DNA from: Brachycybe producta
Taxonomy: Eukaryota > Arthropoda > Diplopoda > Playtdesmida > Andrognathidae
Assembly (NCBI GenBank): GCA_036925085.1
Contig: JAUPFP010000023.1
Coordinates: 2,245,778-2,309,777, forward strand
Length of the DNA stretch: 64,000 nucleotides
Direction of reading: 5' to 3'
Shown: positions 12,622 to 64,000 of the stretch, in pieces
Position numbering within the stretch: the stretch's first letter is position 1
Layout: each line of letters opens with the position of its first letter
The notes under the pieces: generated by a model
Told to the model about the DNA's origin: nothing
The model's input: only the letters and a program-made list of their open reading frames with translations
Databases searched by the model: none
Made by a program: the position numbers and the translations under genes

Positions 12622-12852
12622 TTAAACAGTGCTATAGTAGATCCAATATATCAAATTGAAAGCCAAGTAGAAGGCGGGAAAAATGGCACGACTAAAACCA
12701 TCGATCCGTTTCGCAAGTGCGATTTGATTTCCTCCAGATGTTTTAGCGCCGGCCATCGTAATAATTGTAGGCTGTAACATTTCTCCCTGCTTTTTCAACA
12801 AAACACAACATTTGTACATGAATTTTGCCAAATTTAGAGGAGCTTTTTTATC
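12622..12852 (-). CDS. Channel exon 8, M3-M4 loop end and TM4
   Basis: It starts after TTTTAG with DKKAPLNLAKFMYKCC and ends in RIDGFSRAIFPAFYLAFNLI then YWIYYSTV and the stop. The R-I-D-x-x-S-R-x-x-F-P segment before TM4 is a family hallmark, which confirms the C-terminus. Confidence 0.92.
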   Translation of the reverse strand, partial: DKKAPLNLAKFMYKCCVLLKKQGEMLQPTIITMAGAKTSGGNQIALAKRIDGFSRAIFPAFYLAFNLIYWIYYSTV

Positions 12853-18800: not shown

Positions 18801-20949
18801 ATAGAGTAAGCTAAGTCCTCAGTGTGGGGATTCCACACAGAGCTGCAGTATTCTAGATGGGGACGTACTAATGATTGATATGCTATACATTTTACCTCCC
18901 TGGGACACCTTCTTAGAACACGTTGACTAAACCTAAGCATCTGCATAGACTTGGAAATAATCTGTTCGACATGCAGCTTCCAAGAAAGTTTAGCTGTAAT
19001 CGTTACCCCCAAGAATTTATAAGAATCTACGTTATTAAGTGGAATGGCCCCTATTCTATATGGAAATATTATTGGATTCTTTCCCCTAGCTACCCTCATT
19101 ACACAACATTTTCCCTTATTAAGTTGAAGTTGCCATTTAGAACACCATGCCTCTATTGCTTTCAAGTCACTATCAAAAATATGGCAATCATTGTCAGAGG
19201 TAACCTCACGATAAATTATTGTATCATCTGCAAATAGCCGGCAATTGCTGCTAACTTGACTGCTAAGGTCATTGATATACAAAAGAAACAGAAGTGGACC
19301 CAACACACTACCCTGAGGAACCCCTGATGTAACCTCTATCCAGTCAGATTCAGACCCACCTGCAACAACCCTTTGTTTCCTATCACTCAAAAAAGAATGC
19401 ACCCATTTATACACCTGTTCACCCAATCCATACCCACTAATTTTTGTCATTAATTTTGAGTGAGAAACTGTGTCAAATGCCTTGCAGAGATCAATAAAAA
19501 CCAAATCTATCTGACCGCCTTGGTCTAAAATTTTCTGAAGGTCATCAACTAAAAGAATAAGCTGGGTTTCACATGAACACCCCCTAAGAAACCCATGCTG
19601 GTTATCACACAAAAGATTGTTTTCCATAAGAAAATTCATTGAGGAGGAATATATAATATGTTCAAGGACCTTGCAAACTATCGAGGTTAAAGACACGGGT
19701 CTGTAATTAGTTACCTGAGACTTGTCTCCTGATTTAAAAATTGGACTAACATTAGCTAATTTCCACATATCTGGTACAATACCTACATCTAAACTCTGTT
19801 GAAAAATTAACTGAAGGTATGGACCCAACTCTTGTGCAAGATTTTTTAAAATGATAGCATACATCCCATCTGGACCACAGGTTTTATTTGAGTCTAATTT
19901 TAGAAGTTGCTTGACTATCCCTTCTGCAGTTATTACAATTTGATCCATAAAAAGAGATGTTGAAGGAAAACCCTCATGTGGTATGCCATCATCAATTGTG
20001 AAGACCTTCTTGTATTGTTCATTAAATAAGGTAGCTTTCCCTACTGGATCTGAAACAAGCTTCCCATTTGTTAATTTTGAGGAAGTTTGTGTATGTTTTG
20101 GGGAAGTTTAGGTTTAGGAAGTTTGGTCTACATTTGTGAAGTTGGTGAAGTGCCCAGAGAGCCATTTGTTGGAAAAGAGGAAGAACTGAAAAGTAAGACC
20201 ACTTTCATTATTTTGTAAAAAAGGCCAAAATAGATTTTTTTGGCACAATTGATACCCGTATTTAAGTCTACTCATTAAGTTTTTTTTTACTTTTATTTGC
20301 ACTCATACCTAATTAGTAATCACATCCTATACATATGTTCTAATCACTCTTATTGCCTATAACATAAAATATTTTTAAAAAATTTAACCATTTGTACCAA
20401 AAAGTGTTTATCTATCAAATAAAAGCAATTTTCTAATACAATATTTTCTCTGGCCCGATTGTTATAGAAGCCTTCATTGGCTTAAAGGACCTGGTAAATT
20501 TATCTCTGTCCCTTAAAATTAAAAAACAAAACGGGGCGGGTAACAGTTGTAAGAGAAAAAAAAATCACGATTTTTTTAAAAATATCAAAATATCATATAT
20601 TTATATATCATTAAATCAAATTTTGATATACAAGGATAGGATCGGAAATGACTATCTGAAGGTAGTAGTAGTGCTAGCAACCCATAGTAGAAAAGACGCA
20701 GGAAAATAGGCTGAGGTGATTTGGGCATGTAATTAGGATTGGGGAGGATGAGCTGCCGAAACAGGTGATGACTCGATGAGTTTGGACCTAGAGATAGGGA
20801 TAGAAGAATAGCCCAAACAAGCCTTGAACAAAGGTGTAAAACGGGATGTATGCATGGGTCCTATCTGAGAGTTTAGCACGAAATTGGAAGGAGTGGAGAG
20901 CTGTAACCCGTAAGACCGACCCTGCATTTTGCGGGAAACCGTGCAGGAA

Positions 20950-35900: not shown

Positions 35901-38900
35901 TATTCAAGATTTGTCTGAAGTTACAATAGTAAGTAAATATAGAGAGATGCCCGATTTAGATTCGATTAATCGGAGAATCGATTTTTCGTTTGTTTCATTT
36001 AATTCAACTCAGTACGTCTGCAAATCAGCAAGAGAGTCATGTTGCAAGGGGACAAAAGTTTAACATTCAGTATGCAAACTACATTGTCGAAACCAGAAAA
36101 ATATATAAATTAGAAAGGTCCAAATATGGTCTTGTGGAATTGGGTTATACTCCTCGTTTAAAATACAAGTAAATAACTGCAGTTTTTTTTTTTAAAGTTA
36201 ACCACAGTTAACTTTCTAGTGGAAGCAAATGTGGTTATAATGTATAACCTTGTGAAACTGGGTTATACATCGTTTTAAAAAAACTACAAAAAAATAATTT
36301 CAGTGGAAATAAAATGAATGTGGTTGTGTTAACCATGTTTAAATTTCTGAACAATGGAGTTAATTCAGCTACATTGACACAATGTAGTTAACCACAGTAT
36401 TGAATGGTTGAATACGTCACTTTATATGTTCAACCAGATTTTGTCTACAAACAAAATGGCGGATCGTGAGAGCACTCAATTTTTTTTTACTAAATGAAGA
36501 ATGAAAATTTCACAAGATGCGGAACTGTTTAACAGGAAGTGACACAAAAATTTGTTACCACAGGTAAGTGTTTTAAAAACGAAAACACAGCAACAGTACC
36601 ACTTCTAGCTTGTCTGCAGTTAACTATAATCTTGGTTATGTAACTGCAGTTAATGTGTTGTAGTGGAAACGAGATATTTACACTCACTAACTTAATAGCT
36701 GAGTCATAAGCGTTTTTTATCATCATCATCATTTTCTAAGAATGTTTTTTTTTTATTAATTGTAATCCATCATTAATCTATTGTCCTGTGTACATTTATT
36801 TCATTTGTTGTTACACTGCATCAACAAAACTTAAGTCTTCTGCGTCTTCTATTTGCCAATTGAATACACACACTCGCATCCATTGTGGTTCCAATGGCAT
36901 GATAGGATTTTTATTTGCCATTGTCTTTTAAGTTTGATTTCGAGGTTACTGGATACATAACATAGTAGAAAGGCAATTTTCACATCTGCTAAGTCGAGCT
37001 GAAAATCAATATAATCCGTTGCTCATGTGTTAGAAGTTTTACCAAAACCCAAGTGTTGTTGTTGTTTTTGCTGCACTTGACACATCAGTGATGGAGATTT
37101 TACGATCGAATACACGTTTGTCAGTCATTTTGTTGGTTTAACTTGCTATTTAACTTTTAGGCTCAAATTCACTTTTCGTGTTTTTTTTTTTTTGGTAATA
37201 TACAGATTTAGCAACTACTTAGTTGTCGCCACTTTCCCCACACTACACTGATTGTGGTGATTGATTGTTACACTTGTGTCACTCAACTCTCTGTTGTGGT
37301 TTGTTTTGGAGAGAGAAAATTCTATTGTGAGACTAAATTGAAATTAATCCTTGGCTTTTGTGGGATTTCTTGCAACGATATTATATCTTTGTTAAGGTAA
37401 TTTAGTCGTAAATTGTTTTCAACTGTGCAGTTAGTTTTTCTTTTGTGTTTTCTTCTATATTGAGATAAATTTAAACATGCTTTTCACGTTAGGAGACTAA
37501 GGGATGGATCACACATGCGTAAAAAACAAGCAGAAGATAGAAAAAACTTAAATGATCAGTATAAAGTTTCAGCTACAATTTCTATTTTCCTTTGCATTTT
37601 TGCAAGGATTCTCACACATTATTACAACATAAAACATTTCAAGGGCATTGTTGAGTTTATAGAAGAAAGGGTGTATATTATAAAGTATTTTCAGTTAGAC
37701 AGCAACTTGATGCCATCTTCTACCTTTTCTTTTTACATTGAATTGACTAGTGATATTCTTTATCTCATGTTGCAGAAATGTGAATCTTTTTATATATATA
37801 TATCTGCAAGTAGACCCAATTTGGACTTGCATTGTAGTTTTCTTAGATTAGATGGGGAAATAGTATGCGATTGCCTTCCTTTCTTTCATCCTTCAAGCTG
37901 GCCTCTTCTCTCTCTCTCTCTCTCTCTCTATCTTCTTCATTTCTATTCAACATTATATACATTTCTGAATTCTTCTACACTATATAAATTTGTGTGTGGT
38001 AACGGAAATGAAATTGGAGGAGTTACTTCAAAAATACGTAAAAAACGATTTTTGGACAAGTAAAGCCACTATCACACTAGCAACTTTTCGTGAAACATGG
38101 ATACAATAAAAACTTGCCATGTAACGTGCAACATCTGCATTTATAGTGTGATGTCACTTGCAACCTGAAGAAATTAAAGCTGCTGCTCATATCACACAAG
38201 CAACTTTTCATGAAATTTAGACTTTTGTCACACAGACCACTTTTGGTGGTCGATTTCGATGGCAAAATGATGTTGCATTTGGTTGTAATGTATTTTTTAT
38301 AGAAAGATTCGAAGTGGTCGGGTTTAGCGACAACCCGACTTCATTTTTTAGTCAAAATCGACCACCAAAGGTGGTCTGTGTTCCAACCCTTAAACGCGAT
38401 AAAATTGCAATTACACATACAAACTGTCAACTTGTGTCAAGTAATATCATTTGACATTCAACTAGATGAAACTTTTTTCAAAACACATACAACTTGTGAG
38501 TGACTTAACATGATACTCGCCATAAAAAGCCAATCATGAGTTAACTAGAAATGACATTAGAAGTTTTAATTTGTATGTTTAGTTGCTTTCAGTAAACAAC
38601 TAAGTTGCAGTTGCTAGTTTTATTTGCATATTGACTCGCATGTTTTTTTGCATGAAAAATTGCTTGTGTGTAAGGAAGCTTTAAGAGCCTAGATCCACGT
38701 CCATCTTGTTGTTTTGAGCAGACGACAACGAGACAAATGAGTGTTCTTATATGGTGTTACTAAAACTGCAAGAAATCGCCTCACAATCGCTCAATTAAAA
38801 TACAGTAAAGTGCAAAATGCAATTAAAAGTATTGTTCTTCACTTGCTCGAATTATATAATTTTTGAAAAGGTCCTTCTATTTTTAAACAATGTTCAAAAT

Positions 38901-41900
38901 CGTTCGTTTTTTCAACCCCATGTTAAATCCCATTGGCCCCGAAACCGTCCCACAAACATTTGAAAAACTCTCGTTAAAAACGATTTAGAACAATAATAAA
39001 ATAATTAGCACATACTTTCATGTATTGGCTTCACGATGTTTCCATTTTATAAATTTTGAAAAGGTCCTTCTATTTTTTAATAACGTTTAAAATCGTACGT
39101 TTTTAAACTCCATGTTAAGTCCCATAGGACTAAAACACCGTCCAACAAAAGTTAAGAGAACTCTCATTAAAAATGATTTAGAGCAATCAGTAAAATTAGC
39201 ACGTACTTACACGTGTTTATTGCCTTCAGGATTATTCCTTTTTCTAAATTTTAAAAGGGCTTTCTATTTTTAAATAACATTTAAAATCTTACGTTTTTTT
39301 AACTCCATGTTAAGTCCCATAGGAGCAAAAAACCGTCACCCAAACATTTGAAGAACTCCCATTAAAACGACTTAGAACAATCACACCAAAATTAGCACGT
39401 GCATTAATCTATTGGCTTCACGATATTTCCTTTTTATAAAGTTAGCACGCGAAATTATTTTTCTATTAATTATTATGTGACTTCGAACCAGGAGAAAAAA
39501 CGTTAAAAAACCGTTTTTCAATCAACAACGATCGCAGCGCCTACATTCGGAGAAATTTTGAACTAAACGATGTATCTAGGCTCTTAAGTAAAGTTGCATT
39601 CAATGTTGCTTGTGTGAAGAAGAATTTGAAGTTGCATGTCAAGTTTTTGAATTCTGTTTTGTTAGTTTCTTTTATTCTGATTGGTTGTTTTCAGTAATAA
39701 TTGAAGACAACTTACAAAACTAGTTCTAAGACTAGTTGCTTGAGTGATGTTGAAGTTTATTAAAAAGTAGCAATCGCAAGACTCGTCGCAAGGAAGTTGC
39801 ATGTCACATAGCAAGTTTTATTGCATCCAAATTTCATCGAAAGTTACTAGTGTGATACAGGCTTAAAGAATAACAGCAAACAGTCAGGAAAAAAAACATA
39901 CAGTAGAAGGAAGTGTATATGCTCATATTAGTTTTTGAGGTGTTTTTGAGATTTTTTATATTAAAAAAAACAGTAATTTCATTTACATAATGTTATATAC
40001 GTGTGTATTGGTGTTTTTTTGTTGTTATTCCTGAGAAATTTAGGTTTAACAACAGATGTTCTTTTCAACTTTGGTTGTAATAAAATCTTTTCATCTGTTT
40101 GGTGCCAAAAAAAAAAGTAAACATAATACAAAAAGACGTAATTAATTTATTATAATGCCACGTTTATAATCGGCATTTTGACTATCATATCCTTTCTTTC
40201 TGAATCTGTGTACAATTTGAATATACAAATTCGGAGATTACGTCATTCACGAAATGAGGACTATAAACGCGTACATTGTAATGAAAAGATGTGAAAAGTA
40301 AACATCATTTAAGGTTGCACAGCAACTATTTTTTTTTGTGTAAATAAAGTGAATGTAAATATTTTCCAGATGAAACATTAAAGAACAAAAATGATAGAGA
40401 AAAATAAATTATGAATTGAAAGCAAATAGTTTAGCTGAAAGTAGATTAGTAAATACCTCAGCAAATTAGTTTCTTGATGATGTTTTTTAAAGTACAAACA
40501 TTTTAAGACAGTATGAAAATGAGCAATAATTGTATAACATTTGAAAAAGTTCTATTGATTATACTGTCTTTCAAGAGCAAAATTAAGAGAAACTAAGTGT
40601 TTTACAAACTAGAAGGGAAATTACTTTGAAAAATCTCCACAAAAAGCGCTAGCATCGTTTTTCTATTGAGCCTATAAACATAATGTTAAAAGAAGAAACG
40701 TTAATTTTTTAAAATACACAGACGCGGCAGTATGTTTATTTTTCATATTTAAAGTTGTCCAATTTTGATGGTTCAAAGTGCAATGTGTAATTTGAATATA
40801 TGCTGATCTAGTGATAGAATGACAAAACATTGGTAAGTGTTTTTTCTATTTTTAAAAACTATTTCAAAATCGCGAATTTCTAACTTTTATGTTAAACTCC
40901 ATTGAGTACGCCCAAATAAGAAAAAAAAGCATCCATTAAAATGTTGGTAAAATACCTAAAAATAATTTTAAAAACCAGAAGAAGAAAAAATTAGCACGTG
41001 CGCCAATGTGATGGCTTCACTATGGTTTACTTTTTTTATAATTATTTTTAGGTATTTTTACCAACATTTTAACGTAAGAGTTAGAAATTCGCGATTTTGA
41101 AATAGTTTTTAAAAATAGAAAAACACTTACCAATTTTTTGTCATTCTATCACTAGATCAGCATATATTTAAGGTGTACATTGCACTTTGAACCATCAAAA
41201 TTGGACAACTTTAAATATGAAAAAGAAACATTTTGCCGCAACTGTGTATTTTAAAAATTAACATTTTTTTCTTTCAACATTGGGTCTATATGAGTTCAAT
41301 AGAAAAACGATGGTAGCAATCTTTGTGAAGATTTTCAAAGTAATTTTGCGATGTAGCCTCTTAAGGGTGTTTTCATGTTGATATCTTTCAAAATAAACTT
41401 TTTATAGACAAAAATTTAAAAAAATATCGTCTGTTTAAAGTTAGGTCGTTTTCAAATTCACATAAAAATGCTTATTTTGAAAGATATCAACATGAAAATA
41501 CACTTAAGAGGCTGAATATATATTTATTTTGTTTTTGTATATCTGTCCTACGTGTTCTATAGGAGGAGGGTCTTCTCTCCACCCAAATGTTTTAGCAGAT
41601 TTATGTTTTTCAAGGGAACGTTTTTCAGAAAAAAAAAACGTTGTGAAAAAATTCAAAATGTTTTAGAAACTACAACTAGAATTTATAAAGTCGAAAATAG
41701 TTTTTCAGTGAAATGTTAATGAAGAACCTATAACTGGGTCATTTTCAAACAGCTATAAAATGTTTATTTTTTAAGATATTGCCTTGAAAAAAGGTTCAGC
41801 ATTGTTTTGAAAACATTTTGAATTTTTTCATAATATTGTTTCTGAAGAAGAAGAAAAAGTCTCTTGGCGTTTTTTGGTTCCAAATTTACCAAAAGCATCT

Positions 41901-51660: not shown

Positions 51661-52073
51661 CCTCGTTTACACGGTTATAGTTCTTTCGTAAAAGTAGTTG
51701 TCATGAAAGTTATGATAGGTCTCTCTCATGATAGTAACTGTGTTAGGTGTAGCATACACGTACACCTAACAAAAAAGTACTACACTTACCTTATTATTAT
51801 ATACTTACTGCGAATAACGATCGACGATCAAAGAGTAGAGTAGATTTAAAAAATAAAATGTAACTAAAAGAAATTAATTTGATAACGGTCGTTGGAGCCT
51901 ACAATCATATGATATTAAATTTCAATATCATACGATTGCTTTAATGGTTCCAATGTCCAATTAGGGGGACAAAAAATTTATTTTTTCTCTCTGGTCTGTT
52001 TTTGAGGTTCAAAGTGCACCATTTTCAATATCATGTCAATTGTCAATGACATGAAATCACGGTCATTAACTAA

Positions 52074-52922
52074 TGTAACGAATTCACCGTTTGGAATTCG
52101 TCCGTTTTTGTAAACACCCTGTAATCAAGTTGTATCGATGAAAGGTTCTCACCTCATGCTTGGGGGTGGCCGGGAGGTCATTACGACGATGACTCCCTGC
52201 CCTCCAAAGATGAGAAGAATAGCCCAAAAGTACTACATCGATGGTTAATAGGATAGATCCTAGAAGAACCATCGATGCAGAACTTTTGGACGTGAGAATC
52301 TTTACAAATTGTTAATAGGAGGATGATCGTACATCCTTCTGTATTGTTATAATTTATACATCTTATAGATGTTTTCGTTTCTTGTTAAGTGATAGTTCAC
52401 TTCTAGGTCCGAGTGTGTCCAAGAGACTTGGACACACCTGGAGCCTTTGTTATCATAATCAGATGTTTGTATTGTATTTTGAGTATAAATACAAGAGGTT
52501 GTAGATTGAGAGGACAGATCGGATAGATCAGGCAGATCGGACAGACCGTCTTTATGCTTAAGACCGATGCGATATCTCTCAATCTACAGGACTCTCTGTT
52601 TATTGAATAAAAGAGCATTTTCATCATACGAATTCAATGTGTGGACTCAGTCATTTTATGGGAGTGGGACTTAGGATTATAGCCGCCACGTAGCCGATGT
52701 TTCCACCGGACAACGAAGTCTCCAGCAGCCGAGTGTAAGACGACATCTCTACAATATTCTCTACCACAGGTCTCCTGAGGTACCGACCCTTGTGTCCCTG
52801 GTGGTTAAGTGTGCAACACAGGAGCCAATAGACCGAAAGACTTAATCATCAACATCCATTCGACACTTCTAGATGGCTAGTAGAGATCTCTCTACTAACC
52901 CTACGGAAACGGGGATGTTACA
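52074..52922 (+). mobile_element. Nested solo LTR of another family
   Basis: The 849-bp insert starts TGTAACG and ends GATGTTACA, with CTAA at 52070-52073 and again at 52923-52926 as target duplication; the uninterrupted site is preserved in the 3' LTR. It contains TATAAAT (52483-52489) and AATAAA (52606-52611) in the order expected for LTR promoter and poly(A) signals and has no internal coding region, so it is a solo LTR left by LTR-LTR recombination. An 11-bp hairpin (GTGTGTCCAAG / CTTGGACACAC) lies at 52413-52437. Confidence 0.88.
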
Positions 52923-53156
52923 CTAATGACGTATGATTTCAACAGAGTATTCAATGGGGTAAAAGTTCGCTAGCTAGCCATGCAGCTCTGGGCTAGAAAA
53001 TAGCTCTGATTATCAACCACATGATATGTCCACATGATAATCATGTGAACAATCCAAAGGTTGGGTGACCACTACGCATTAAAATTACTTTTGCGAAAAA
53101 CAAAAAATTGACGAGTTAGTTGAAACATAGTGTCTGAAGAAGAAGGGTCGAAGCTG

Positions 53157-53231
53157 GTGGAAGAGTGAGTGAAGAGTGGAAGAGTGAGTGAAGAGTGGAA
53201 GAGTGAGTGAAGAGTGGAAGAGTGAGTGAAA
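53157..53231 (+). repeat. 19-bp tandem repeat in the 5' LTR
   Basis: Four units of GTGGAAGAGTGAGTGAAGA, the last one slightly changed. Purine-only apart from T. The same array occurs in the 3' LTR at 62897-62971. LTR tandem repeats often act as promoter or enhancer elements; that role is inferred. Confidence 0.9.
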
Positions 53232-53821
53232 GGGAATTGAGTGATTGTGTGTGTGTTGCAACAGAGTTCTACACGGAAGATGGACCCCGAAATATTGTGA
53301 GTTACAAAAAATTCATAAAAAATTTATACATCTTATACAATATACACTTATACATATATATACACTATGTATATGTTATAAAGTAAATTCATAACTTAGA
53401 CACTAAGGAGCAGAATGAATTCTAATTAAATGTGTTTGGGTGAATTAGAACTTGATTGCATTGGGCTGAGTTGAATTCAGAGGGATTCAATTTAGCCTGG
53501 GACAATCAGGTTCCTCCGTAAACAATTAGACCCTTAGTCCAGACCTAGTTGTAATTATACCAAAGTAACAGACCAGAGCAAAGTGTAAAACAGTCCCTAC
53601 CACCCCTTTTTTCTTATTGTACTCTTTTGTGAACAAATAAATTTAACCTCTTTAGCAAAACAACAAGTTTCCCTTTTTTGATTGGAAGTACCAGAAGAGG
53701 GGGGGTAATACGGCTGAACCTCAGAGCTTCATTGCTCTTACACCTGAGGTCATCATAAGACATCTTTGTAAGCGCTTTTCTTTAAGCCAACTTTAGTTGG
53801 TGAAAAGCGCCCAACAAAAAG

Positions 53822-53839
53822 TGGCGTCGTGAACAGGAT
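53822..53839 (+). other. Primer-binding site
   Basis: TGGCGTCGTGAACAGGAT starts five bases after the 5' LTR. The leading TGG is the complement of the tRNA CCA end, as required for minus-strand priming. I could not assign the tRNA with confidence. Confidence 0.75.
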
Positions 53840-54184
53840 TTAATCGATTTTTTTTTCATTTTCACTTGGCCTGGTCTTTTGTAGTGGTATGAGTATTGGT
53901 TCATTTGTGTTTAGAAATTAAGTAGCATTAAGAGGGGGGTATGCATGCGATGCGCAAAGGAGTATCACTTACTGCTAAATTGTCCACACACCTACACAGC
54001 GCGAATTTTGCAAACACGAAGGCTCAAAAAAGCAGCCTGTAACTATGTAAATGGACAATAGCAACAGCACTTGTAATAGAAGGCGGATATTAAACAAAAG
54101 GTAACAATAAACTCATTATAACAGGAACCATTTTCGGAAGACGAAGAAAAAATTGAATTAATTGTGTCGAAGAATAATTATAAA
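53840..54184 (+). other. Retrotransposon leader
   Basis: A 345-bp untranslated leader between PBS and gag. The frame upstream of the gag ATG is open only from the region around 54160. It may carry packaging or splice-donor sequences, but no strong donor could be singled out. Confidence 0.6.
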
Positions 54185-55276
54185 ATGACAGATAATGCGG
54201 AATCCTCTACTTCTCAAGGGAACAGTACCCAGCTAAACTTTTCTAATTTGATTCCTACCTTTTCTGGTGACGATAAAGGACCGTCAGCCAGGGAAATCTT
54301 TGAACAGCTAGAGAAAGTGGGGGGAAAGGCTCACTGGGATCAGGAGTTTATGATCCTGGTTTTCAAATCAAAATGCAGAGGGCTTGCTGCCGAATTCTTC
54401 AGAGATCATCCTGAAGTCAGAACCATTACGTCCTTTCCTGAGTTAAAAACTTTGTTTATTCAAAGATTTGATCCCCTGGAGGCAAGGCAGACTCTTCAAC
54501 AACGGTTTATGGAGGCTAAACAGGCACACACAGAGTCTGCAATAGCATATATTTCTCGAGTAAAAACTCTAGGAAGGGTTTTTACCGGAGAAATGCCTAC
54601 CGTAGAAGAAATTAGATTAAGGGATAGGATGATACAAACACAACTACTTAGAGGCCTTCCACCAAAAATGAAACGATTTGTGCTGACTAGGAACCCTGAA
54701 ACCTTAGAAGATACTATTAAGGCAATCTTAATAGAAGAGGAAAACGAAAAGTTAACGAGTTTAAAATATGGATTGAATGCCTTGGAAACAGAAGAAAAAG
54801 AAAAAACGGACTTGCAGAAATTAGAAGAAAAGGTGAAGAATCTAGAGCAGCAAAATAAAAATGAAATAGCAGCTCTAGATGAAAAATATAAGAAGGAATT
54901 AGAAAAGGCATATGAAATCAAAACAGAAAAATCTAATATGGAATGTTTTAATTGCCACAAGCACGGGCACTTTGCAAATGAGTGCAGAGCCCCAAAACAG
55001 TCAGGTTTCCATAGGAACCCACCAAGAAGACCCTTTCAACAGCCAACCCAGGCCCATGCCTCTTTTTCAATACAGTGTTACAACTGTGGGAAAATGGGAC
55101 ACATGGCTCGAGACTGTTGGTCAAAGGCCCAATTAGGTAAAAATACCTCTTCACAGTGTTTTCATTGTGGAAAGAGCGGACATTTTGCACGGGATTGTCG
55201 TAACCGAAATGTTGGAAGACCGCAACCAAGGAATGTTAGATATCAGTCCAGACAAGACCCTAGAAGGGGAAACTAA
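54185..55276 (+). CDS. Gag polyprotein with three CCHC zinc knuckles
   Basis: 363 residues from ATG 54185 to TAA 55274; open frame extends seven codons upstream but without ATG. The N-terminal half (about residues 40-190) is a retrotransposon gag capsid domain (FEQLEKVGGKAHWDQEFMIL, LEARQTLQQRFMEAKQAH, LLRGLPPKMKRFVLT). A Lys/Glu-rich coiled-coil segment follows (about 200-255). The nucleocapsid has three CX2CX4HX4C knuckles: CFNCHKHGHFANEC, CYNCGKMGHMARDC and CFHCGKSGHFARDC, which bind the genomic RNA. The last ~110 bases overlap the pol frame. Confidence 0.93.
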   Translation: MTDNAESSTSQGNSTQLNFSNLIPTFSGDDKGPSAREIFEQLEKVGGKAHWDQEFMILVFKSKCRGLAAEFFRDHPEVRTITSFPELKTLFIQRFDPLEARQTLQQRFMEAKQAHTESAIAYISRVKTLGRVFTGEMPTVEEIRLRDRMIQTQLLRGLPPKMKRFVLTRNPETLEDTIKAILIEEENEKLTSLKYGLNALETEEKEKTDLQKLEEKVKNLEQQNKNEIAALDEKYKKELEKAYEIKTEKSNMECFNCHKHGHFANECRAPKQSGFHRNPPRRPFQQPTQAHASFSIQCYNCGKMGHMARDCWSKAQLGKNTSSQCFHCGKSGHFARDCRNRNVGRPQPRNVRYQSRQDPRRGN

Positions 55277-58200
55277 AGGCTTCCCCTATAAAAACGCGTA
55301 CATGGGGAGGATAAGAAAAGGAACGCGTCTCATATTTAACCCATTAGGTACTAATTCTTCTTGTCCGATATTTTTGGCAACGGTACAACACAACTTAGTC
55401 AAAATTCTTTATGATACAGGGGCAGCAATATCAGTTGTTTCGAGGAGTTGTTTTGAAGAAGTAAAAAGAAACTTCCCACACAAGGTGAAGCCTATTCCTA
55501 GTTCTGAACTTTTAGAAATAGTAGCAGCAAATGGGAAGCCATTTCCTACAATTGGTGTGTACAAAATTCCAGTAAAAATTAGATCCACCATTGTTCAAGT
55601 ACCTATGCATGTTAGCTGTAATGACTTGCCGAGGAAATATCATATGATCTTTGGCATAGACATTATTAAGAAACTGGGCTTAACTTACGAGCCAGTTAAA
55701 GATATCATTTGGTATAAAGGACAGATGGTTAGGACGCAGACTGGTGAACTCAAACAGACAATTAATTTGTTACAAAAGGTAACAAAGGCACATAAAACAA
55801 ATTCAAGGGAATGGATCCAGGAGTGTTTGGAAAATACAAATAACACATTCAAAGGAATGTTAAAACAAGTCCTCGAGGCAAATGCGGATTGCTTTGCCAA
55901 TAATTTAAAGGAACTCACTCCTACACACATAGTGGAACAAGAAATAGAATTTTCAGACAAAACCCCAGTTTTTATTCGCCCATATAAGGTTCCGCAAAAG
56001 TTAGAGGGAGTAATGCAGGAAAAAATAGATGAATTATTAACAGCAGGAATTATCAGATCTTCTGTTAGTCCATATTCTGCACCATGTATGTTAGTAGGCA
56101 AACCAGATGGAAGCCATAGGCTCGTAATAGATTACAGGGCCCTTAACAAAAAAGTTGTCGGGGACAAATATCCCTTGCCAGAATTGCTTAGTGTTAGCAA
56201 TCAATTGGGAAATGCTAGGTACTTCACAACTATCGATTTAGCTAGTGGGTTCTATCAAATTCCAGTGAGAGAAAGTGACAAAGCAAAATTGGCTTTTAGC
56301 ACACCTTTTGGACACTACGAATTTAATCGATGCCCAATGGGACTAAAAACCTCTCCTAGTGTATATCAGAGGTTGATGGACAACGTATTGCAAGGACTTA
56401 AGGGAAAAATCTGTTTTGTATACATGGATGATATAATCATCTATAGTAGTACCCCAGAAGAGCATGTTCTGCGTTTGAATTTAGTATTCCAGCGATTGCG
56501 AGAAGCAAATCTAAAAGCAAAACCTTCCAAGTGTGTTTTCATGAAAACAGAAATCAGTTATCTTGGACACACTTTTACAGAGGGACAAATACAGCCAGGA
56601 GACAAGAAAATTGAAGCGGTTGCAAAATTCCCAAGACCCACTAAAATGAAAAATGTGCAAAGTTTTCTTGGTTTAGTAAATTTTTACCGAAAATTTATAC
56701 AAAATTGTGCTAAAATTGCAGCACCCTTAACACAGCTTTTGGGAAAGGATGTGCCTTTTAATTGGACAGATGCATGTGAAAGGGCATTTGAGACTCTCAA
56801 AACATGTCTAACCACATACCCTGTACTAATCACGCCAGATTTTGGAAAACCTTTTTTCTTAACAACTGATGCTTCTAACATGTCAATTGGAGCCATTTTA
56901 GAACAAAAAGTGGGTGATAAACTACATCCTATAGCTTATGCAAGTAGGAAACTAACAAAATCAGAACAGAATTACTCTACAACATGGAAAGAAGCTTTAG
57001 CATGTGTGTATGGCGTAAATTATTTTCGCTATTATCTTATGGGACGCAAGTTTACACTAATAACAGACCATCAGCCGTTAAAATACCTTATGTCTATGAA
57101 AAAGGATAAGGCTATGTTAACAAGATGGGCGCTTCAATTACAGCAATATGATTTTGAAATCGCATATCGAAAGGGGAAAGAGAATACAAATGCAGATGCT
57201 CTTAGTAGAAATCCAATAGAAGAGTTGAATGTTTTAAGTACACAATTTGATGTTTGGGAGGAAAAAATGGTCGCGAAAGATCAAGAAAATTGTGCTGAAT
57301 TAAAACCATTTTTGGAGAATTTGCATGGTTGTCCAACTTCCAAAGAAATGCAGAAGGAGGTGGAGAAGCGAAATTATGAGTTGAATACAAAGGGATGGTT
57401 AGTAAAGAGGGAGAAAGACATGATTAAATTGGTAGTACCCATAAGAAGAAGGGAGACCATATTGAGAATGTGCCATGATAATGTTTTAGCAGGACATTTA
57501 GGGATAGATAAGACAATACAGCGCATCGAAGAAAGGTTTTATTGTAAAACTTTACGAGCTGATGTAAAGCATTACTGTGAGTCTTGCATTTCTTGTCAAG
57601 AGAAGAAAGTTCCACATGGAAAGAGTCCTTTGTGCAAATTTCCACCACCCTCTAAGCCATTTGAAAGGATTGGGATGGACATTTTAGGTCCTTTACCAAC
57701 CACTGTCAATGGAAATAAATACCTCGTTGTCATCTGTGATTACTTGACTAGATATCCGGAAGCATTTGCCATTCAAGATCAGAGAGGAGAAACTATAGCA
57801 AGTGTATTAGTAAGAGAGATAATATCGAGATATGGCAGTCCAAGAGAATTAATTACAGACAGAGGTGCAAACTTCACATCTGAATTAATACACAATCTAT
57901 GTAAGATGTTCAGGATAAAGAAAATTTTTACCTCAGCGTATCACCCACAAACTGATGGATTAGTTGAAAGGTTTAACCGTACCTTGACCACCATGTTATC
58001 ACACTATGTGGATAAATCGCAGAGAAATTGGGATGAGGAACTTCCTCTAGTTCTTATGGCATATAGGAGTGCTGTGCACTCAAGTACCAAAGAAACCCCA
58101 TACTTCTTACTGTACGGTCAAGACATGAGTTTGCCTTTTGACTTAGTCATACAAAAGCCAGAACCAATATACAACATAGACGACTATGTTAAAGTTTTGA

Positions 58201-59084
58201 CGACTCGTATGCAATCCATACATGAGTTAGCTAAAGAAAGCTTGGAAGGATCTGCAGAAAAGCAGATAAGGTACCAAAAAGGATCTCGGAAACACAAAGC
58301 TATTACAGTAGGAGATAAGGTTTTTCTTTACATCCCACAGGTAACAAAAGGAAAAACTAAAAAGTTAGCTAGGTTAAATAAAGGTCCATATAGAGTCCTA
58401 GCACAAACGTCACCAGTAAATTTTAGGATTCAGCACATGTACAAACCTAAGGACGTGCAGATTGTGCATGAGGAAAGGCTGAAAGTTGTAAAATCAACAA
58501 ATCCTTGGGAGTTCCAAGAATTAGAAGATACAGAAGAGTTAAGTCGGAAGTCAACGGACCAAGAAGAAAATGCTGAAAACGAGGAAGAAACCTCGTCAGA
58601 AGAAAACATGGATGATGAAGAAGCAAATGGAACAGCAATGCATCCAGCAACATCAACGATGATGGGACCAGCTCGGAACATCGAATCCGTACCCACAAGT
58701 CATCGATATGAGTTGCGCAGCAGAGCAGAAACCATAGAACCACACCCATCTACCTCTAAAGGAGGAGAACAGAAAAGAAAGTGGGAGGTAGTAAAACCCA
58801 CAGAAAGTCCATTAAAATTGAAAATAAGAAGAGCAAGTCTTCAATCAGATGATGAGGATATTAGTCTGGCAAGGTTGCGAGACAGAATTCGAGGTGAAAA
58901 GGAAGTTTATGCAGAGGCTACCAAGGTAGTAAGCCCGACAGAACCAGTAGACGAAGTGGAGCAAGCAGCATCGACTGAGAGAGTCGAAGAACCAGTTAGT
59001 GAATCCAGAGGAAATTTTGCTGACAAGCTCCTTGATTCATTTCATAAAATGTTAAGTGTACTAGAAACAGCACCAAGGCAGTGA
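55167..59084 (+). CDS. Pol polyprotein: protease, reverse transcriptase, RNase H, integrase
   Basis: Open for 1305 codons in the +1 frame relative to gag, overlapping it to 55276; it has no ATG of its own, so a Gag-Pol fusion by frameshifting is expected. Residues counted from 55167: aspartic protease DTGA at 83-86; RT with LVIDYRALNKKVV, TTIDLASGFYQIPV and the catalytic YMDD at 419-422; RNase H with TTDASNMSIGAILEQ (D568); integrase with an H2C2 zinc finger (about 770-815) and a DD35E triad D838, D898, E934; a GPY/F-type module (LARLNKGPYRVL) follows. A ~190-residue acidic, Ser/Glu-rich tail ends the protein, longer than usual. All catalytic residues are present and no stop interrupts the frame. 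Motifs match Ty3/Gypsy, not BEL/Pao or Copia. Confidence 0.95.
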   Translation: MERADILHGIVVTEMLEDRNQGMLDISPDKTLEGETKGFPYKNAYMGRIRKGTRLIFNPLGTNSSCPIFLATVQHNLVKILYDTGAAISVVSRSCFEEVKRNFPHKVKPIPSSELLEIVAANGKPFPTIGVYKIPVKIRSTIVQVPMHVSCNDLPRKYHMIFGIDIIKKLGLTYEPVKDIIWYKGQMVRTQTGELKQTINLLQKVTKAHKTNSREWIQECLENTNNTFKGMLKQVLEANADCFANNLKELTPTHIVEQEIEFSDKTPVFIRPYKVPQKLEGVMQEKIDELLTAGIIRSSVSPYSAPCMLVGKPDGSHRLVIDYRALNKKVVGDKYPLPELLSVSNQLGNARYFTTIDLASGFYQIPVRESDKAKLAFSTPFGHYEFNRCPMGLKTSPSVYQRLMDNVLQGLKGKICFVYMDDIIIYSSTPEEHVLRLNLVFQRLREANLKAKPSKCVFMKTEISYLGHTFTEGQIQPGDKKIEAVAKFPRPTKMKNVQSFLGLVNFYRKFIQNCAKIAAPLTQLLGKDVPFNWTDACERAFETLKTCLTTYPVLITPDFGKPFFLTTDASNMSIGAILEQKVGDKLHPIAYASRKLTKSEQNYSTTWKEALACVYGVNYFRYYLMGRKFTLITDHQPLKYLMSMKKDKAMLTRWALQLQQYDFEIAYRKGKENTNADALSRNPIEELNVLSTQFDVWEEKMVAKDQENCAELKPFLENLHGCPTSKEMQKEVEKRNYELNTKGWLVKREKDMIKLVVPIRRRETILRMCHDNVLAGHLGIDKTIQRIEERFYCKTLRADVKHYCESCISCQEKKVPHGKSPLCKFPPPSKPFERIGMDILGPLPTTVNGNKYLVVICDYLTRYPEAFAIQDQRGETIASVLVREIISRYGSPRELITDRGANFTSELIHNLCKMFRIKKIFTSAYHPQTDGLVERFNRTLTTMLSHYVDKSQRNWDEELPLVLMAYRSAVHSSTKETPYFLLYGQDMSLPFDLVIQKPEPIYNIDDYVKVLTTRMQSIHELAKESLEGSAEKQIRYQKGSRKHKAITVGDKVFLYIPQVTKGKTKKLARLNKGPYRVLAQTSPVNFRIQHMYKPKDVQIVHEERLKVVKSTNPWEFQELEDTEELSRKSTDQEENAENEEETSSEENMDDEEANGTAMHPATSTMMGPARNIESVPTSHRYELRSRAETIEPHPSTSKGGEQKRKWEVVKPTESPLKLKIRRASLQSDDEDISLARLRDRIRGEKEVYAEATKVVSPTEPVDEVEQAASTERVEEPVSESRGNFADKLLDSFHKMLSVLETAPRQ

Positions 59085-59431
59085 AGAGTAAGTATGTTAT
59101 GACCCAAACAAAAAACAACAGGAAGGGGAAATTAGCTTATTTTGAATTCCAATTATAGGGCAGGAGTTCCGCTATTCCAAATGTAGGAACTTATCTCGGT
59201 GGGCTATTATCCGACCTAGGAAGCGTCTCGCAGGGTCAATAGGAGATAATCCCTGAGGACTTACCCTCTAAATTTTAGGGCCTGTTGGAAAAAATTGAAT
59301 GTAATGAATGCTTGTGAAAATTGCTATGGAAAGAATTAACATTTAACAGATGCTTACTACTAACAAATAAAGTACCCAAATTCAAAATCTTAACAAGATA
59401 TAACTTTTCAGGTTTATATTTTTGGGACTAG
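59085..59431 (+). other. Spacer between pol and the envelope-like ORF
   Basis: Non-coding, with inverted and direct AGGACTTA/ATAGGAGATAAT motifs. At 59401-59411 the sequence TAACTTTTCAG is a good splice-acceptor candidate directly ahead of the third ORF, as expected if its product is made from a spliced subgenomic RNA. Confidence 0.6.
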
Positions 59432-62053
59432 CCTGCATATCTGGAGTTGTGTCAATTCTCAGAGCCTAAAGATCCTAACATTTATTCAAGCAAGCTTTGC
59501 CCACAAAATGGTTGCAAAGGATGCGTAACCCAGTGGACTACTAAAGTAATAATACCACAGAAACCACCAGCTCCTGTAATCGGTTTTCAGCTCCAGCAAA
59601 TAGAAGCGGAAACTGGCAGAGATGTGGTGTATAAGTGCACTAACCATGATATCGCTTGTACCTGCAGTAACCAATCATGCTCCGGCACTATTGATTATTG
59701 TGCAAAAGCTAAAAACTGCAAATCAGACCCTGCAAAATGCCATTGTGAATTAAAGAAAGCATCCACTAAATTAGTACATGTGGATGAAGAAGGACAAGAG
59801 ACCGAAAATTTTGAAGTAGTCTCGTATAGGGAATGTTACTGGAATAGATCCGATATAAGAAATCGTGACTCGCGATCAATTGGGAGAAAATTACTGGCAC
59901 AAGAACAATTCAAAATTGAGGATGGGCAAAATTTTATTAAATTTAATGATCCAGTAATAACTGTGAGTGCGGAGGGATCTCTCATCTTAAGAAAAGATGG
60001 AATTGAGCGAAGTACTCACGTGGGAAAAAATAAACAGGTTATCATATCTCCTGAATTCGGTATGGACTCAGGCACTCTCCATATCATCTTCATTACTCTT
60101 GAAGGTCATATTATAGAGGGCCGATTTCCTATCGAAGGGAAAGACATTTGCCATAGAATCAAATGTGTTGTGTGTTTAGAATTTGTGTATAATTTTCATT
60201 GCATGCCAACTTACATATCATATACTCTTGTGATTACTATGATGGTACTTACAAGTGTTTTTATTATATATTTGAAAAGTGTTATAATTGCCATTTGGGA
60301 AATAGGTAAATGGATCTGCTGGTTTTCCATTACGAGTTACAGATTAAGTACAAAATGTTTACGAGTAATTATGGTAATAGGTGTAGCAAGTGGTCATCAG
60401 GTGAAATCAAAGGCAAAAAAGGTCCAGAATAAGTTCAAGTCTCTAGAAGAAAGAACCATGAAACCAGTGGTTGTAGCCCCTAAACTACAATTAAGTACCG
60501 CTGTACTGTATGTTATAATTTTTACAGGTATTTTGTTAAGTTTGTTCTCTATTGCATCATCACGATGTACTGAGCATAAGCTTATAAAATCCAGCGTCAA
60601 AGAATGTATAGATACTGGCATGGGACAGAAGTGTGCCTTGGCAACATCAGTGCAGTTGACCTTGTCAAATCTGGGCTATACTGCTTGTTTGTGGTTAACT
60701 GATGATCAAGAATATTATGCAGCTACATTAGAAGTTATCTTCGAATCTGTTGATTGTGAGTGGAAGACTCAGCAAATGTATTATACTTTCCCTACAAAAT
60801 TGTTTACTTTAAATCAAGTTGTGTGTCCACACAACGAATATTGCGGTTGGGGAGAACATTGTCATAGGGATTATAAATTCGAAACACTAACCAAAGAATC
60901 ATTGGATTTTCCTGGTGTGACTGATTGCGAAGGAGCAGATTCAGGTATGAAGTGCTTTTTCAACAATCAGCCGTGCCATTTTTTCCGTTGGTGGCTAAAA
61001 CCCGTATATTATCAAACCTACGAAGTTAAACGAATTGTATCAATGGATTGCGCACCAAAAATCAAGATGATTGTAAAAAATAATAATACAGAAACAGAGT
61101 ATGTCGTACGCAAATTCAAGACGATTCCAGGTATATTTCACATCGAGGTCTTAGGCACGTTTGATCAGGCTACGGACATAATTTCAAAACATTTGATTGT
61201 CCACTATAGTCACATTTCTGAAGCATATTTAGAAACTGCCGCAGAAGTGGAAAGACCATTACGAGGGCAGATTGGTGATGTCCAATCTGGTGCAGCTATA
61301 CCTGAGCAGTTCATTTTTGATGAAAAAATGGTTACCTGCAAATTTTTTGAAAGACGTATGACCTGCTCAAAACAGTCATCTTACCTAGAACTCATGATTC
61401 AAAGCAAAAGAAATCTTTTGCCTATGGCAACAGTAAACCACAAGATGTTTATTGATGATGACGGTAACTTGAAATCTACCCTTATATCATCAAGCCCAGC
61501 TGTAGTGCATATCAACCTTGAACATTTAGATGTTGTAATTAATACTGTTCGAGTTTGTCCAAAATTACAAAAAATTGTATCATACCATGGTTGCCATTCT
61601 TGTTCAACTATGGCTACAATAGTAATTGAGGCATTAAGTACCTGTTTACCTGGAGAAGTTTTAATTACATTGGAAACTGTCCAGATGTCAACACGTGCTA
61701 TATCTTTGACAACAGTAGCCAAAGAACATGAGATTCAACTTAAATTAAGTCACAGGTGTTTGCATGATAAAATTTGCTTGATATCCAGGGTGGGATCATC
61801 CTGCGAATTGTTTAAAGGTTGTTTTGAAGATCCATATATAGAACTCATTCAACAGAACAATACCTATGTTACATCGAATGCAGTTTTTACATCGGGTGGT
61901 AATTTTGATTTTACGAATATATTCTCTGGCATTTTTTCGAGTGCTTTTTCGAGTTTAGGATCTGCCATGGTGATGCCAATATTTTTCATGGTGAGCATCC
62001 TGACAACATGCTTCATATTTTCCTGTATGATGAGCATGTTACGAGCCAGATAG
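59432..62053 (+). CDS. Envelope-like protein, phlebovirus Gn/Gc-type glycoprotein precursor layout
   Basis: The open frame runs from just after TAG 59429 to TAG 62051; counted from 59447 it has 868 codons. There is no ATG before residue 206, so translation must begin elsewhere. Layout: a Cys-rich ectodomain (about 1-250), membrane segment(s) (about 252-310), a short cytoplasmic stretch, a hydrophobic internal signal (about 348-370) ending ASSR just before C374, a second Cys-rich ectodomain with paired cysteines and a W/F-rich cluster (FRWWLKP, about residues 515-521), and a C-terminal anchor (841-864) with a short basic tail. This matches the Gn-Gc class II fusion precursor design known from phleboviruses and from env genes of some arthropod and nematode LTR elements. 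The assignment rests on architecture and cysteine pattern only. A virus-derived gene is inferred, and its function is untested. Confidence 0.72.
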   Translation, partial: PAYLELCQFSEPKDPNIYSSKLCPQNGCKGCVTQWTTKVIIPQKPPAPVIGFQLQQIEAETGRDVVYKCTNHDIACTCSNQSCSGTIDYCAKAKNCKSDPAKCHCELKKASTKLVHVDEEGQETENFEVVSYRECYWNRSDIRNRDSRSIGRKLLAQEQFKIEDGQNFIKFNDPVITVSAEGSLILRKDGIERSTHVGKNKQVIISPEFGMDSGTLHIIFITLEGHIIEGRFPIEGKDICHRIKCVVCLEFVYNFHCMPTYISYTLVITMMVLTSVFIIYLKSVIIAIWEIGKWICWFSITSYRLSTKCLRVIMVIGVASGHQVKSKAKKVQNKFKSLEERTMKPVVVAPKLQLSTAVLYVIIFTGILLSLFSIASSRCTEHKLIKSSVKECIDTGMGQKCALATSVQLTLSNLGYTACLWLTDDQEYYAATLEVIFESVDCEWKTQQMYYTFPTKLFTLNQVVCPHNEYCGWGEHCHRDYKFETLTKESLDFPGVTDCEGADSGMKCFFNNQPCHFFRWWLKPVYYQTYEVKRIVSMDCAPKIKMIVKNNNTETEYVVRKFKTIPGIFHIEVLGTFDQATDIISKHLIVHYSHISEAYLETAAEVERPLRGQIGDVQSGAAIPEQFIFDEKMVTCKFFERRMTCSKQSSYLELMIQSKRNLLPMATVNHKMFIDDDGNLKSTLISSSPAVVHINLEHLDVVINTVRVCPKLQKIVSYHGCHSCSTMATIVIEALSTCLPGEVLITLETVQMSTRAISLTTVAKEHEIQLKLSHRCLHDKICLISRVGSSCELFKGCFEDPYIELIQQNNTYVTSNAVFTSGGNFDFTNIFSGIFSSAFSSLGSAMVMPIFFMVSILTTCFIFSCMMSMLRAR

Positions 62054-62322
62054 ATGAATCCAAACTTCCGCCGGAATGTTTCGTCGTCCAAGACATATAA
62101 AGGACACATATGTAACATCCGACAAGCCATCATAGCTGTGTTACAGTGAATGTAATATTCCAAAGTAGAAGACATCAGAAATAATTGCAGTGAATTGCAA
62201 TTGAGGATGGATGATCGGACAAAGACATCAGTAGATTTAAAAACTAACTTAGAACCATTGTTTAGCTTTAAGAAAAATGTAAACATCCCACTAATTTCAC
62301 CCGGGGTTGAAATCTTTATTTT
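62054..62322 (+). other. 3' untranslated segment of the retrotransposon
   Basis: 270 bp between the third ORF and the polypurine tract. No open frame on the plus strand is worth naming; the minus-strand frame overlapping 61864-62358 is a shadow of the envelope-like ORF. Confidence 0.6.
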
Positions 62323-62333
62323 GGGGGGAGGAA
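62323..62333 (+). other. Polypurine tract
   Basis: GGGGGGAGGAA directly abuts the TGTTAGG start of the 3' LTR, the position at which plus-strand DNA synthesis is primed. It is preceded by a T-rich run. Confidence 0.88.
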
Positions 62334-63556
62334 TGTTAGGTGTAGCATACACGTACACCTAACAAAAAAGTACTACACTTACCTTATTATTATATACTTA
62401 CTGCGAATAACGATCGACGATCAAAGAGTAGAGTAGATTTAAAAAATAAAATGTAACTAAAAGAAATTAATTTGATAACGGTCGTTGGAGCCTACAATCA
62501 TATGATATTAAATTTCAATATCATACGATTGCTTTAATGGTTCCAATGTCCAATTAGGGGGACAAAAAATTTATTTTTTCTCTCTGGTCTGTTTTTGAGG
62601 TTCAAAGTGCACCATTTTCAATATCATGTCAATTGTCAATGACATGAAATCACGGTCATTAACTAATGACGTATGATTTCAACAGAGTATTCAATGGGGT
62701 AAAAGTTCGCTAGCTAGCCATGCAGCTCTGGGCTAGAAAATAGCTCTGATTATCAACCACATGATATGTCCACATGATAATCATGTGAACAATCCAAAGG
62801 TTGGGTGACCACTACGCATTAAAATTACTTTTGCGAAAAACAAAAAATTGACGAGTTAGTTGAAACATAGTGTCTGAAGAAGAAGGGTCGAAGCTGGTGG
62901 AAGAGTGAGTGAAGAGTGGAAGAGTGAGTGAAGAGTGGAAGAGTGAGTGAAGAGTGGAAGAGTGAGTGAAAGGGAATTGAGTGATTGTGTGTGTGTTGCA
63001 ACAGAGTTCTACACGGAAGATGGACCCCGAAATATTGTGAGTTACAAAAAATTCATAAAAAATTTATACATCTTATACAATATACACTTATACATATATA
63101 TACACTATGTATATGTTATAAAGTAAATTCATAACTTAGACACTAAGGAGCAGAATGAATTCTAATTAAATGTGTTTGGGTGAATTAGAACTTGATTGCA
63201 TTGGGCTGAGTTGAATTCAGAGGGATTCAATTTAGCCTGGGACAATCAGGTTCCTCCGTAAACAATTAGACCCTTAGTCCAGACCTAGTTGTAATTATAC
63301 CAAAGTAACAGACCAGAGCAAAGTGTAAAACAGTCCCTACCACCCCTTTTTTCTTATTGTACTCTTTTGTGAACAAATAAATTTAACCTCTTTAGCAAAA
63401 CAACAAGTTTCCCTTTTTTGATTGGAAGTACCAGAAGAGGGGGGGTAATACGGCTGAACCTCAGAGCTTCATTGCTCTTACACCTGAGGTCATCATAAGA
63501 CATCTTTGTAAGCGCTTTTCTTTAAGCCAACTTTAGTTGGTGAAAAGCGCCCAACA
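62334..63556 (+). repeat. 3' LTR
   Basis: 1223 bp, TGTTAGG to CCAACA, with the unoccupied CTAA site of the nested insertion, TATAAA at 63117-63122, AATAAA at 63376-63381 and the 19-bp array at 62897-62971. By eye I found no difference from the 5' LTR outside the nested insertion; an alignment would be needed to count substitutions. Confidence 0.93.
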
Positions 63557-64000
63557 ACTGTCTTGATGTAACGTGATAGTTCATTGTCATGACAGTCATA
63601 GTAGGTCTCTCTTAAAGCCTCATTTTCACGATAGTTGCTGTCATGACAGTAACTATCGCGAAAACTATCATCTCGGAAAACTATAGCTTTAACATACTCT
63701 CAATTTTTTTTGCTCTTCTTGCTTTCATAAAACATCATAATTAAATCTAGATTGGCCTAAAGAATTCTATGATTCCACGTGAAGAGTTGCAAGCATATTG
63801 GTGGTTTTGCAAATTGTCCAGCCATTGTGCATAATAACTGATTTTACCACTTTGCCTGTAACATATGCATGTAGAATTGTAGATGAATTTCAATTTGAAT
63901 TCTGTCAGTGGATGTGGGGATAAATAATGGAAAAAGAATCTTGTCTGTGTTATTCTCAGCAATGAGGAAGAAGAACTTTTTAGAGCTTACAATACAGCAT
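63557..64000. other. Right flank of the retrotransposon
   Basis: It starts with the ACTG duplication. Sequence here (GTCATGACAGT, TAGGTCTCTCTTAAAGCCTC) echoes the left flank (TAGGTCTCTC, TAAAGCCTCG near 51657), so the element landed inside an older repeat. No exon seen to the window end. Confidence 0.6.

Follow-up and report, generated by a model that had tools for sequence, protein, structure and literature searches.

A young Ty3/gypsy element with a phenuivirus-type Gn-Gc envelope gene in the genome of the millipede Brachycybe producta

The stretch of DNA analysed here (the window, 64,000 nucleotides of contig JAUPFP010000023.1 of B. producta) contains a long terminal repeat (LTR) element with open reading frames (ORFs) for gag, pol and a third protein, ORF3. 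We read it as a very young, endogenous-retrovirus-like insertion of the Ty3/gypsy type, in which ORF3 codes for a Gn-Gc envelope (Env) of the phenuivirus kind and which belongs to a lineage that has long shared this pol and this env; the probability of this reading is about 0.88. The element is not an isolated oddity: the Ty3/gypsy lineage to which it belongs, with its class II envelope, is established in the genome and was active recently. An earlier note on the same DNA had placed a Ty3/gypsy element with a phlebovirus-type envelope between positions 51741 and 63556. These borders are correct, as the LTRs end there and ACTG is found on both sides (Table 1). The proposed combination of pol and env is borne out by the Pfam domains, by Ty3 as the best solved relative and by the topology of ORF3. 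The nested solo LTR, the shortened front of env and the age of the env-pol pairing in this genome, all described below, are additional to that note.

Table 1. Features of the element and their positions in the window (TSD, target-site duplication; RT, reverse transcriptase).
Feature	Position	Strand	Remarks
Ty3/gypsy element as a whole	51741-63556	+	TSD, LTRs, polypurine tract, domains
Left TSD copy	51737..51740	.	ACTG
5' LTR	51741..53816	+	2076 bp; 1223 bp of own sequence, with a foreign solo LTR inside
Nested solo LTR	52074..52922	.	849 bp, TGTAAC...GTTACA, CTAA duplication; read as a probable solo LTR
Motifs inside the nested solo LTR	52484; 52606		TATAAATA at 52484; AATAAA at 52606
Primer binding site	53822..53838	+	complements the last 14 bases of a host tRNA-Ser(CGA) gene
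gag	54185..55276	+	Retrotrans_gag domain, three zinc-knuckle stretches
pol	55137..59084	+	stop to stop; protease DTGA, RT (YMDD), RNase H, H2C2, integrase core, Integrase_p58_C
env (ORF3)	59432..62053	+	open between two stops, in-frame start missing near the 5' end
Gn-like transmembrane segment	60239..60295	+	ORF3 residues 265-283, by hydrophobicity; Gn match adjoins
Pre-Gc hydrophobic segment	60500..60556	+	residues 352-370; internal signal sequence by analogy
Gc-like class II fusion protein	60566..62050	+	Phlebovirus_G2 on 60566-61477
Gc transmembrane segment	61964..62020	+	residues 840-858, by hydrophobicity
Polypurine tract	62323..62333	+	directly abuts the 3' LTR
3' LTR	62334..63556	+	1223 bp, 19-bp tandem repeats at 62897-62970
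Right TSD copy	63557..63560	.	ACTG

Judged by its domains and motifs, the pol of the element is of the Ty3/gypsy type. Pfam matches comprise RT (E 6.5e-40), RNase H, H2C2, the integrase core and Integrase_p58_C, and the motifs DTGA, YMDD, TDAS and GPY could be identified. The order protease-RT-RNase H-integrase with Ty3/gypsy-type domains is that of the Metaviridae. The pol frame overlaps gag by 140 nt and lies in the +1 frame relative to it; gag itself matches Retrotrans_gag (E 7.7e-08) and zinc knuckles (E 2.4e-17). Among solved structures the closest to pol is Ty3 with 430 bits over residues 266-1100, which cover RT, RNase H and integrase. Behind two Ty3 entries follow an 'Enzymatic polyprotein', presumably from a caulimovirus (214 bits), and retroviral entries of at most 133 bits, including 'Pr125Pol' (133 bits), which we take to be from a spumavirus.

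A protein search with pol gave 3420 matches. Of the best 120, the top eight carry the annotation of a pseudoscorpion; the others include proteins of a spider, ants, bumblebees and an alga. A pol tree was calculated by a quick method with 57 rows, i.e., 55 matches (10 named and 45 unnamed), the window and Ty3; the 37 of the 120 matches that span fewer than 480 query residues were left out and 55 of the remaining 83 used. The window sits on a long branch (1.29), and its highest identity to any row is 45%. As the tree was drawn from matches to this pol plus Ty3, it cannot exclude BEL/Pao.

The third frame is open for 873 codons and matches Phlebovirus_G2 (PF07245) at residues 374-677 with E 4.3e-27 and 95.4 bits, far above the curated cut-off of 22.9. 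The match is beyond chance, because the same profile found nothing in 14 control genomes and the frame stays open throughout. Three hydrophobic segments give the order Gn-transmembrane-signal-Gc-transmembrane, which is the layout of phenuivirus glycoproteins. The stretch across the first transmembrane segment resembles the Gn stem of severe fever with thrombocytopenia syndrome virus (SFTSV; E 0.0067), and the part ahead of it is short compared with SFTSV Gn, i.e., the Gn head is short or missing. A search with the predicted Gc structure ranked Gc of Rift Valley fever virus first, and all 50 rows listed by a VIA-align fold search are class II fusion proteins, judged by entry title. A class II fold is thus predicted for Gc, albeit from a poor model. 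Both lines, profile and structure, bear out the similarity to phlebovirus Gc that the earlier note had expected. An F-type envelope as in baculoviruses was considered for ORF3 and dropped, since Phlebovirus_G2 was alone among the Pfam families at E up to 1.

A search of 5.8 billion proteins with the Gc region gave three relatives out of 5914 candidates (P0123, P0124 and P0125, with 40, 36 and 30% identity, E at most 5.4e-73). They lie on contigs of 4.2-5.8 kb, which may come from retroelements or from viruses, and Phlebovirus_G2 matched all four members of the env family (the window and P0123-P0125). A search with the first 500 residues of Env yielded no match at E up to 0.001 from 4734 candidates, and no env relative was found in scans of viral_contigs. 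When the env profile was run against 125 proteins it matched P0123-P0125 alone, so that an env in the same ORF was seen in none of the 120 best pol relatives. Basic motifs are present at residues 140-150 of ORF3 (RDSR and RKLL) and in the same region of P0124 (RRLK). They resemble what we take to be the furin or S1P cleavage consensus and might mark processing inside Gn.

The host assembly (295 Mb, 442 contigs) contains many copies of the family. The Env protein has at least 55 matches in it (52 of 366 candidates scored); six, including the window, are at 98-100% identity, the others mostly at 46-62%, and many are fully open frames. The Phlebovirus_G2 profile matched 83 places, all above cut-off (102 of 102 candidates scored), some of which are pieces of one gene. 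The LTR has at least 60 fragmentary matches (with 40 of 84 candidates scored). LTR pairs about 11 kb apart surround env copies on contigs C7, C10 and C27, with a partial pair on C8. The four pairs differ at 1 of 1213, 1 of 1227 (plus 3 gaps), 1 of 1231 (plus 1 gap) and 7 of 578 columns, and because the differences are near zero, three of the four paired insertions must be nearly as young as the window copy. The copy count and LTR divergence that the earlier note had called for therefore describe a multi-copy family with near-identical LTR pairs. One locus of the host genome (C13:4897008-4909363) has four family LTR copies at 94% identity with start spacings of 3686, 3724 and 3686, which looks like a tandem arrangement and not like separate insertions.

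The env and pol genes travel together in this genome. All 15 further env copies whose flanking DNA was read (5 close and 10 diverged) have a pol of this kind beside them. Its core is 96-99% identical to that of the window in the close copies and 66-77% in the diverged ones, and the corresponding env identities are 98-99% and 46-59%. Such a pol was also found beside seven of eight more distant Phlebovirus_G2 places that are not among the env matches. With the window this amounts to 23 of 24 examined places, while 59 of the 83 Phlebovirus_G2 places are outside this count. Pairwise pol and env distances among 16 copies are correlated (r 0.924, 120 of 120 pairs, 0 of 2000 permutations), a value inflated by near-identical groups; with one copy from each of seven groups the correlation is weaker (r 0.681, 21 pairs, 31 of 5040 permutations). 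Since the distances are correlated, the pairing of env and pol should be older than the divergence of these groups within the genome, and the distances give no sign of frequent env swapping among the groups. The ratio of nonsynonymous to synonymous rates in env is 0.04-0.12 in all 10 pairs of five close copies, by a crude count that sets aside codons with several changes (0-5 per pair). By this measure, env is kept under selection during the spread of the family.

The LTRs date the window copy. They start with TGTT and end with AACA, and outside an 849-bp insert, which interrupts the 5' LTR after LTR base 333, they are identical at 1223 of 1223 bases (333 of 333 and 890 of 890). Because of this identity the insertion must be very recent. 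It had been called so in the earlier note on the grounds of matching LTRs, TSDs and open gag and pol, and the base-by-base count and the ACTG duplication agree. The same comparison disposed of an apparent one-gap difference between the LTRs, which was an artefact at the insert junction. The insert is read as a solo LTR of another element because of its LTR-like ends and the two motifs listed in Table 1. It would have been inserted later still than the element, unless the assembly is wrong there; no further copy of it was found in window positions 1-51700. The nested solo LTR also shows a second LTR family active after the element had inserted. It sits upstream of the LTR's sole TATAAA, which in the 3' copy is at 63117, so that the core promoter of the 5' LTR may have been left intact; motifs of the form TATATA are also present at other sites. 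A promoter scan of the LTR gave results at chance level with a bacterial-type model. Both LTRs contain a perfect 19-bp tandem repeat of 3.9 copies, which in the 5' LTR is at 53157-53230. No second copy of the element was found in the window when its parts were compared by BLAST with positions 1-51700.

The 14-base complement of the primer binding site, without the TGG end, occurs 19 times in the host genome, compared with once for a control pattern. Judged from coordinates, 11 of these sites are at env-bearing elements and one is beside a family LTR. Six of the remaining seven are without a tRNA, and the seventh coincides exactly with the 3' end of a tRNA-Ser(CGA) gene; it is because of this last site that tRNA-Ser is the likely primer of the element. 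Rfam and tRNA scans of the window found nothing.

Several observations weigh against our reading, in addition to the limits given above for the pairing count, the distance correlation and the rate ratio. One of the more distant Phlebovirus_G2 places (C1:12139870-12142370) has no pol match in the 2.5 kb read. The mean predicted local distance difference test score (pLDDT) of the Gc model is 47.7, which is poor, and the full-length Env model (44.7) is too poor for use. A further point is the front of env. The first in-frame ATG of ORF3 does not come before residue 206 of 868, and none of the six close copies, the window included, has an in-frame ATG in its open env front. Expression of env through splicing has to be assumed for this reason.

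Donor-like and acceptor-like motifs can be recognised by eye in the leader and ahead of ORF3. Two diverged copies have an ATG at the env front. In fly errantiviruses the start codon of env is on a short exon that precedes gag (PMC12992720). By analogy, the start codon of env in this subfamily may be supplied by an upstream exon. Counted from a common point, the open front is 34 codons long in all five close copies and holds a hydrophobic stretch (peak hydropathy 1.8-2.1), compared with only 5 codons in the window, where this stretch is missing. The window copy thus appears to have lost the signal-peptide region from its env frame, and its env is probably disabled at the front. With this shortened front and an interrupted 5' LTR it is not an intact endogenous retrovirus, even though gag and pol are open.

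Reverse transcription of the element would be primed by tRNA-Ser. Translation of the full-length RNA would give Gag, and also Gag-Pol when ribosomes move into the +1 frame where the two frames overlap, and Env would be made from a spliced RNA with a start codon upstream of ORF3. The Env precursor would be cleaved at the internal signal that precedes Gc. Gc would be a class II fusogen triggered by low pH, by which particles pass from cell to cell or from one individual to another.

Two other explanations of the element can be set aside. The missing start codon would fit an ORF3 that lies in this copy by accident, as part of some other element or as a fragment of bunyavirus origin. We regard such an accident as extremely improbable and reject it as far as the examined copies go, as six near-identical and many diverged copies carry env behind pol, the two genes diverge together, and env appears constrained. 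It is also very improbable that the element is a member of BEL/Pao, where envelopes of this type are known; the type of envelope is what speaks for it. The pol domains typical of BEL/Pao in Pfam are Peptidase_A17, DUF5641, DUF1758 and DUF1759. None of them was among the ten families found at E up to 1, in a scan that included no BEL/Pao positive control. On this account, and with Ty3 as the best solved match over RT, RNase H and integrase, membership in BEL/Pao was rejected. The RT motif is furthermore YMDD and not YVDN as in nematode BEL/Pao elements (PMC9094657).

Where the Ty3/gypsy lineage obtained its envelope, for which the earlier note had suggested an independent capture or swap, is less clear, and two origins are about equally probable, each at somewhat less than even odds. 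Env could have been gained from a BEL/Pao element through recombination between retroelements, or it could have been captured directly from a phenui-like RNA virus of arthropods by a Ty3/gypsy ancestor, independently of BEL/Pao. The profile of the four env proteins matches Gc of Atlas virus, a BEL/Pao element of hookworm, with E 8.4e-19 and 70 bits, whereas nine other rows with Gc of the phlebovirus or bandavirus type reach just 16-21 bits. With P0124 alone, Atlas Gc (6e-11) is the sole PDB match at E up to 1. This preference among solved structures counts against a direct capture and favours a shared history of retroelements, but with the window protein by itself the signals are weaker and do not all point the same way. 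By default phmmer it matches phlebovirus-type Gn and Gc weakly and Atlas Gc not at all, and both its Gc alone and P0123 alone miss the Atlas fragment. In a filter-free search (hmmsearch --max) against this fragment, which is the part matched by the four-protein profile and therefore favours a match, window Gc reaches 22.6 bits and P0123 7.6, compared with at most 5.9 bits (171 of 200 shuffles scored) and 5.0 bits, respectively, for shuffled controls. The Atlas signal of the family is carried mostly by P0124 and P0125.

Few insect phenui-like glycoproteins are in the PDB, and such viruses top the structure search among viral proteins. In BFVD most of the named rows among the best 20 are viruses of insects, mosquitoes or crustaceans, including Yichang Insect virus, Hubei diptera virus 5, Broome phasivirus 1 and Shuangao Insect Virus 3. 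This fits a capture from an RNA virus, although the search was made with a low-confidence model and BFVD contains viral proteins only. Env was moreover found with a Ty3/gypsy pol at 23 of 24 places and with BEL/Pao at none, in a genome whose BEL/Pao elements were not searched for. We tentatively consider, with rather less confidence than an even chance would give, that these animal Ty3/gypsy retroviruses form a lineage not described so far, both long-lived and active until recently, which gained its class II Gn-Gc independently of the nematode BEL/Pao elements, i.e., that such envelopes entered retroelements at least twice. Whichever origin is correct, the sequences of the family are concrete material with which an exchange of envelopes between retroelements can be tested against their capture from RNA viruses.

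The window has a low GC content and contains several other features outside the element. An open frame of 551 codons on the minus strand (18452-20107) matches RVT_1 (E 1.3e-36) and is, by eye, a reverse transcriptase of the non-LTR type. An exon of a ligand-gated chloride channel resembling GluCl or a glycine receptor is found at 12834-13307 (minus strand), with GluCl alpha as the best solved match. The 628-codon open frame at 6656-8542 holds tandem repeats of a 60/123-base unit and has a weak match to the chitin-binding Peritrophin-A domain (20.1 bits, cut-off 22.1). A tandem array with 3.1 copies of a 193-bp unit was identified at 38851-39440. The channel exon, the chitin-binding match, the low GC content and the chelicerates among the pol relatives are compatible with an arthropod host, although they are no proof of it.

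Envelopes of several kinds have been assigned to retroelements, and the sources differ on them. In PMC5962544, baculovirus-type env is given for errantiviruses, phlebovirus-type for Cer and herpesvirus-type for Tas, all as Metaviridae, while the nematode elements of the phlebovirus type are assigned to Belpaoviridae in PMC9094657. PMC7642597 describes chuvirus glycoproteins in Pao elements and links phlebovirus to Tas and herpesvirus to Cer, which is opposite to the Tas and Cer envelopes of the other two. Spodoptera cells carry an endogenous, phlebovirus-like piece of G (PMC5803895), and a tick has a Phlebovirus_G2 transcript, integrated or not (PMC4357865); both could be related to the Env described here. 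A Ty3/gypsy element with a phlebovirus-type env is not mentioned in the passages considered of PMC5408684, PMC6085415, PMC12992720, PMC12440569, PMC13172572, PMC10309623 and PMC6563192. Nor was a report of one found in a literature search by titles and the beginnings of abstracts, the coverage of which is incomplete. The pairing of a Ty3/gypsy backbone with a phlebovirus-type env thus seems, tentatively, not to have been reported before.

Compared with known systems, pol is most like that of yeast Ty3, with which the element shares the +1 relation of gag and pol. Ty3 uses a +1 frameshift between the two genes, and we know of no env in it. The envelope resembles those of phleboviruses, bandaviruses and phenui-like viruses of insects in Gc profile and fold, Gn stem and topology, but the Gn of ORF3 is short compared with that of SFTSV, and gag-pol and LTRs belong to the element alone. 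Canonical errantivirus Gag proteins to our knowledge lack zinc knuckles, unlike the Gag of this element with its three zinc-knuckle stretches. With the insect errantiviruses gypsy, ZAM and Idefix the element has a Ty3/gypsy backbone and a third, probably spliced env ORF in common, but their Env is described as baculovirus F-type (PMC12992720) and not as a class II Gc. The Anakin elements of mosquitoes are also retrotransposons with an envelope from a negative-strand RNA virus, yet in their case a BEL/Pao backbone carries a chuvirus glycoprotein (PMC7642597).

The closest parallel is Atlas virus, a member of the Belpaoviridae in Ancylostoma ceylanicum with an Env of tandem Gn and Gc (PMC9094657). 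Both are LTR elements with identical LTRs and a phlebovirus-like Gn-Gc Env, and no solved sequence matches the env family profile better than Atlas Gc (7a4a). Atlas Gc, as the Env of a related retroelement, fuses membranes (PMC9094657), and it is for nematode BEL/Pao that a class II fusion protein in an integrating element has been documented experimentally. Atlas virus has a BEL/Pao pol with YVDN, a Gag-Pol-Env polyprotein and LTRs of 271 nt, whereas the element of B. producta has a Ty3/gypsy pol with YMDD, separate ORFs and LTRs of 1223 bp. The diversified, recently active Ty3/gypsy lineage with an Env of this kind shows that the type of envelope is not tied to the polymerase lineage outside nematode BEL/Pao either, and that a class II env can stay under constraint in a retroelement lineage for a long time.

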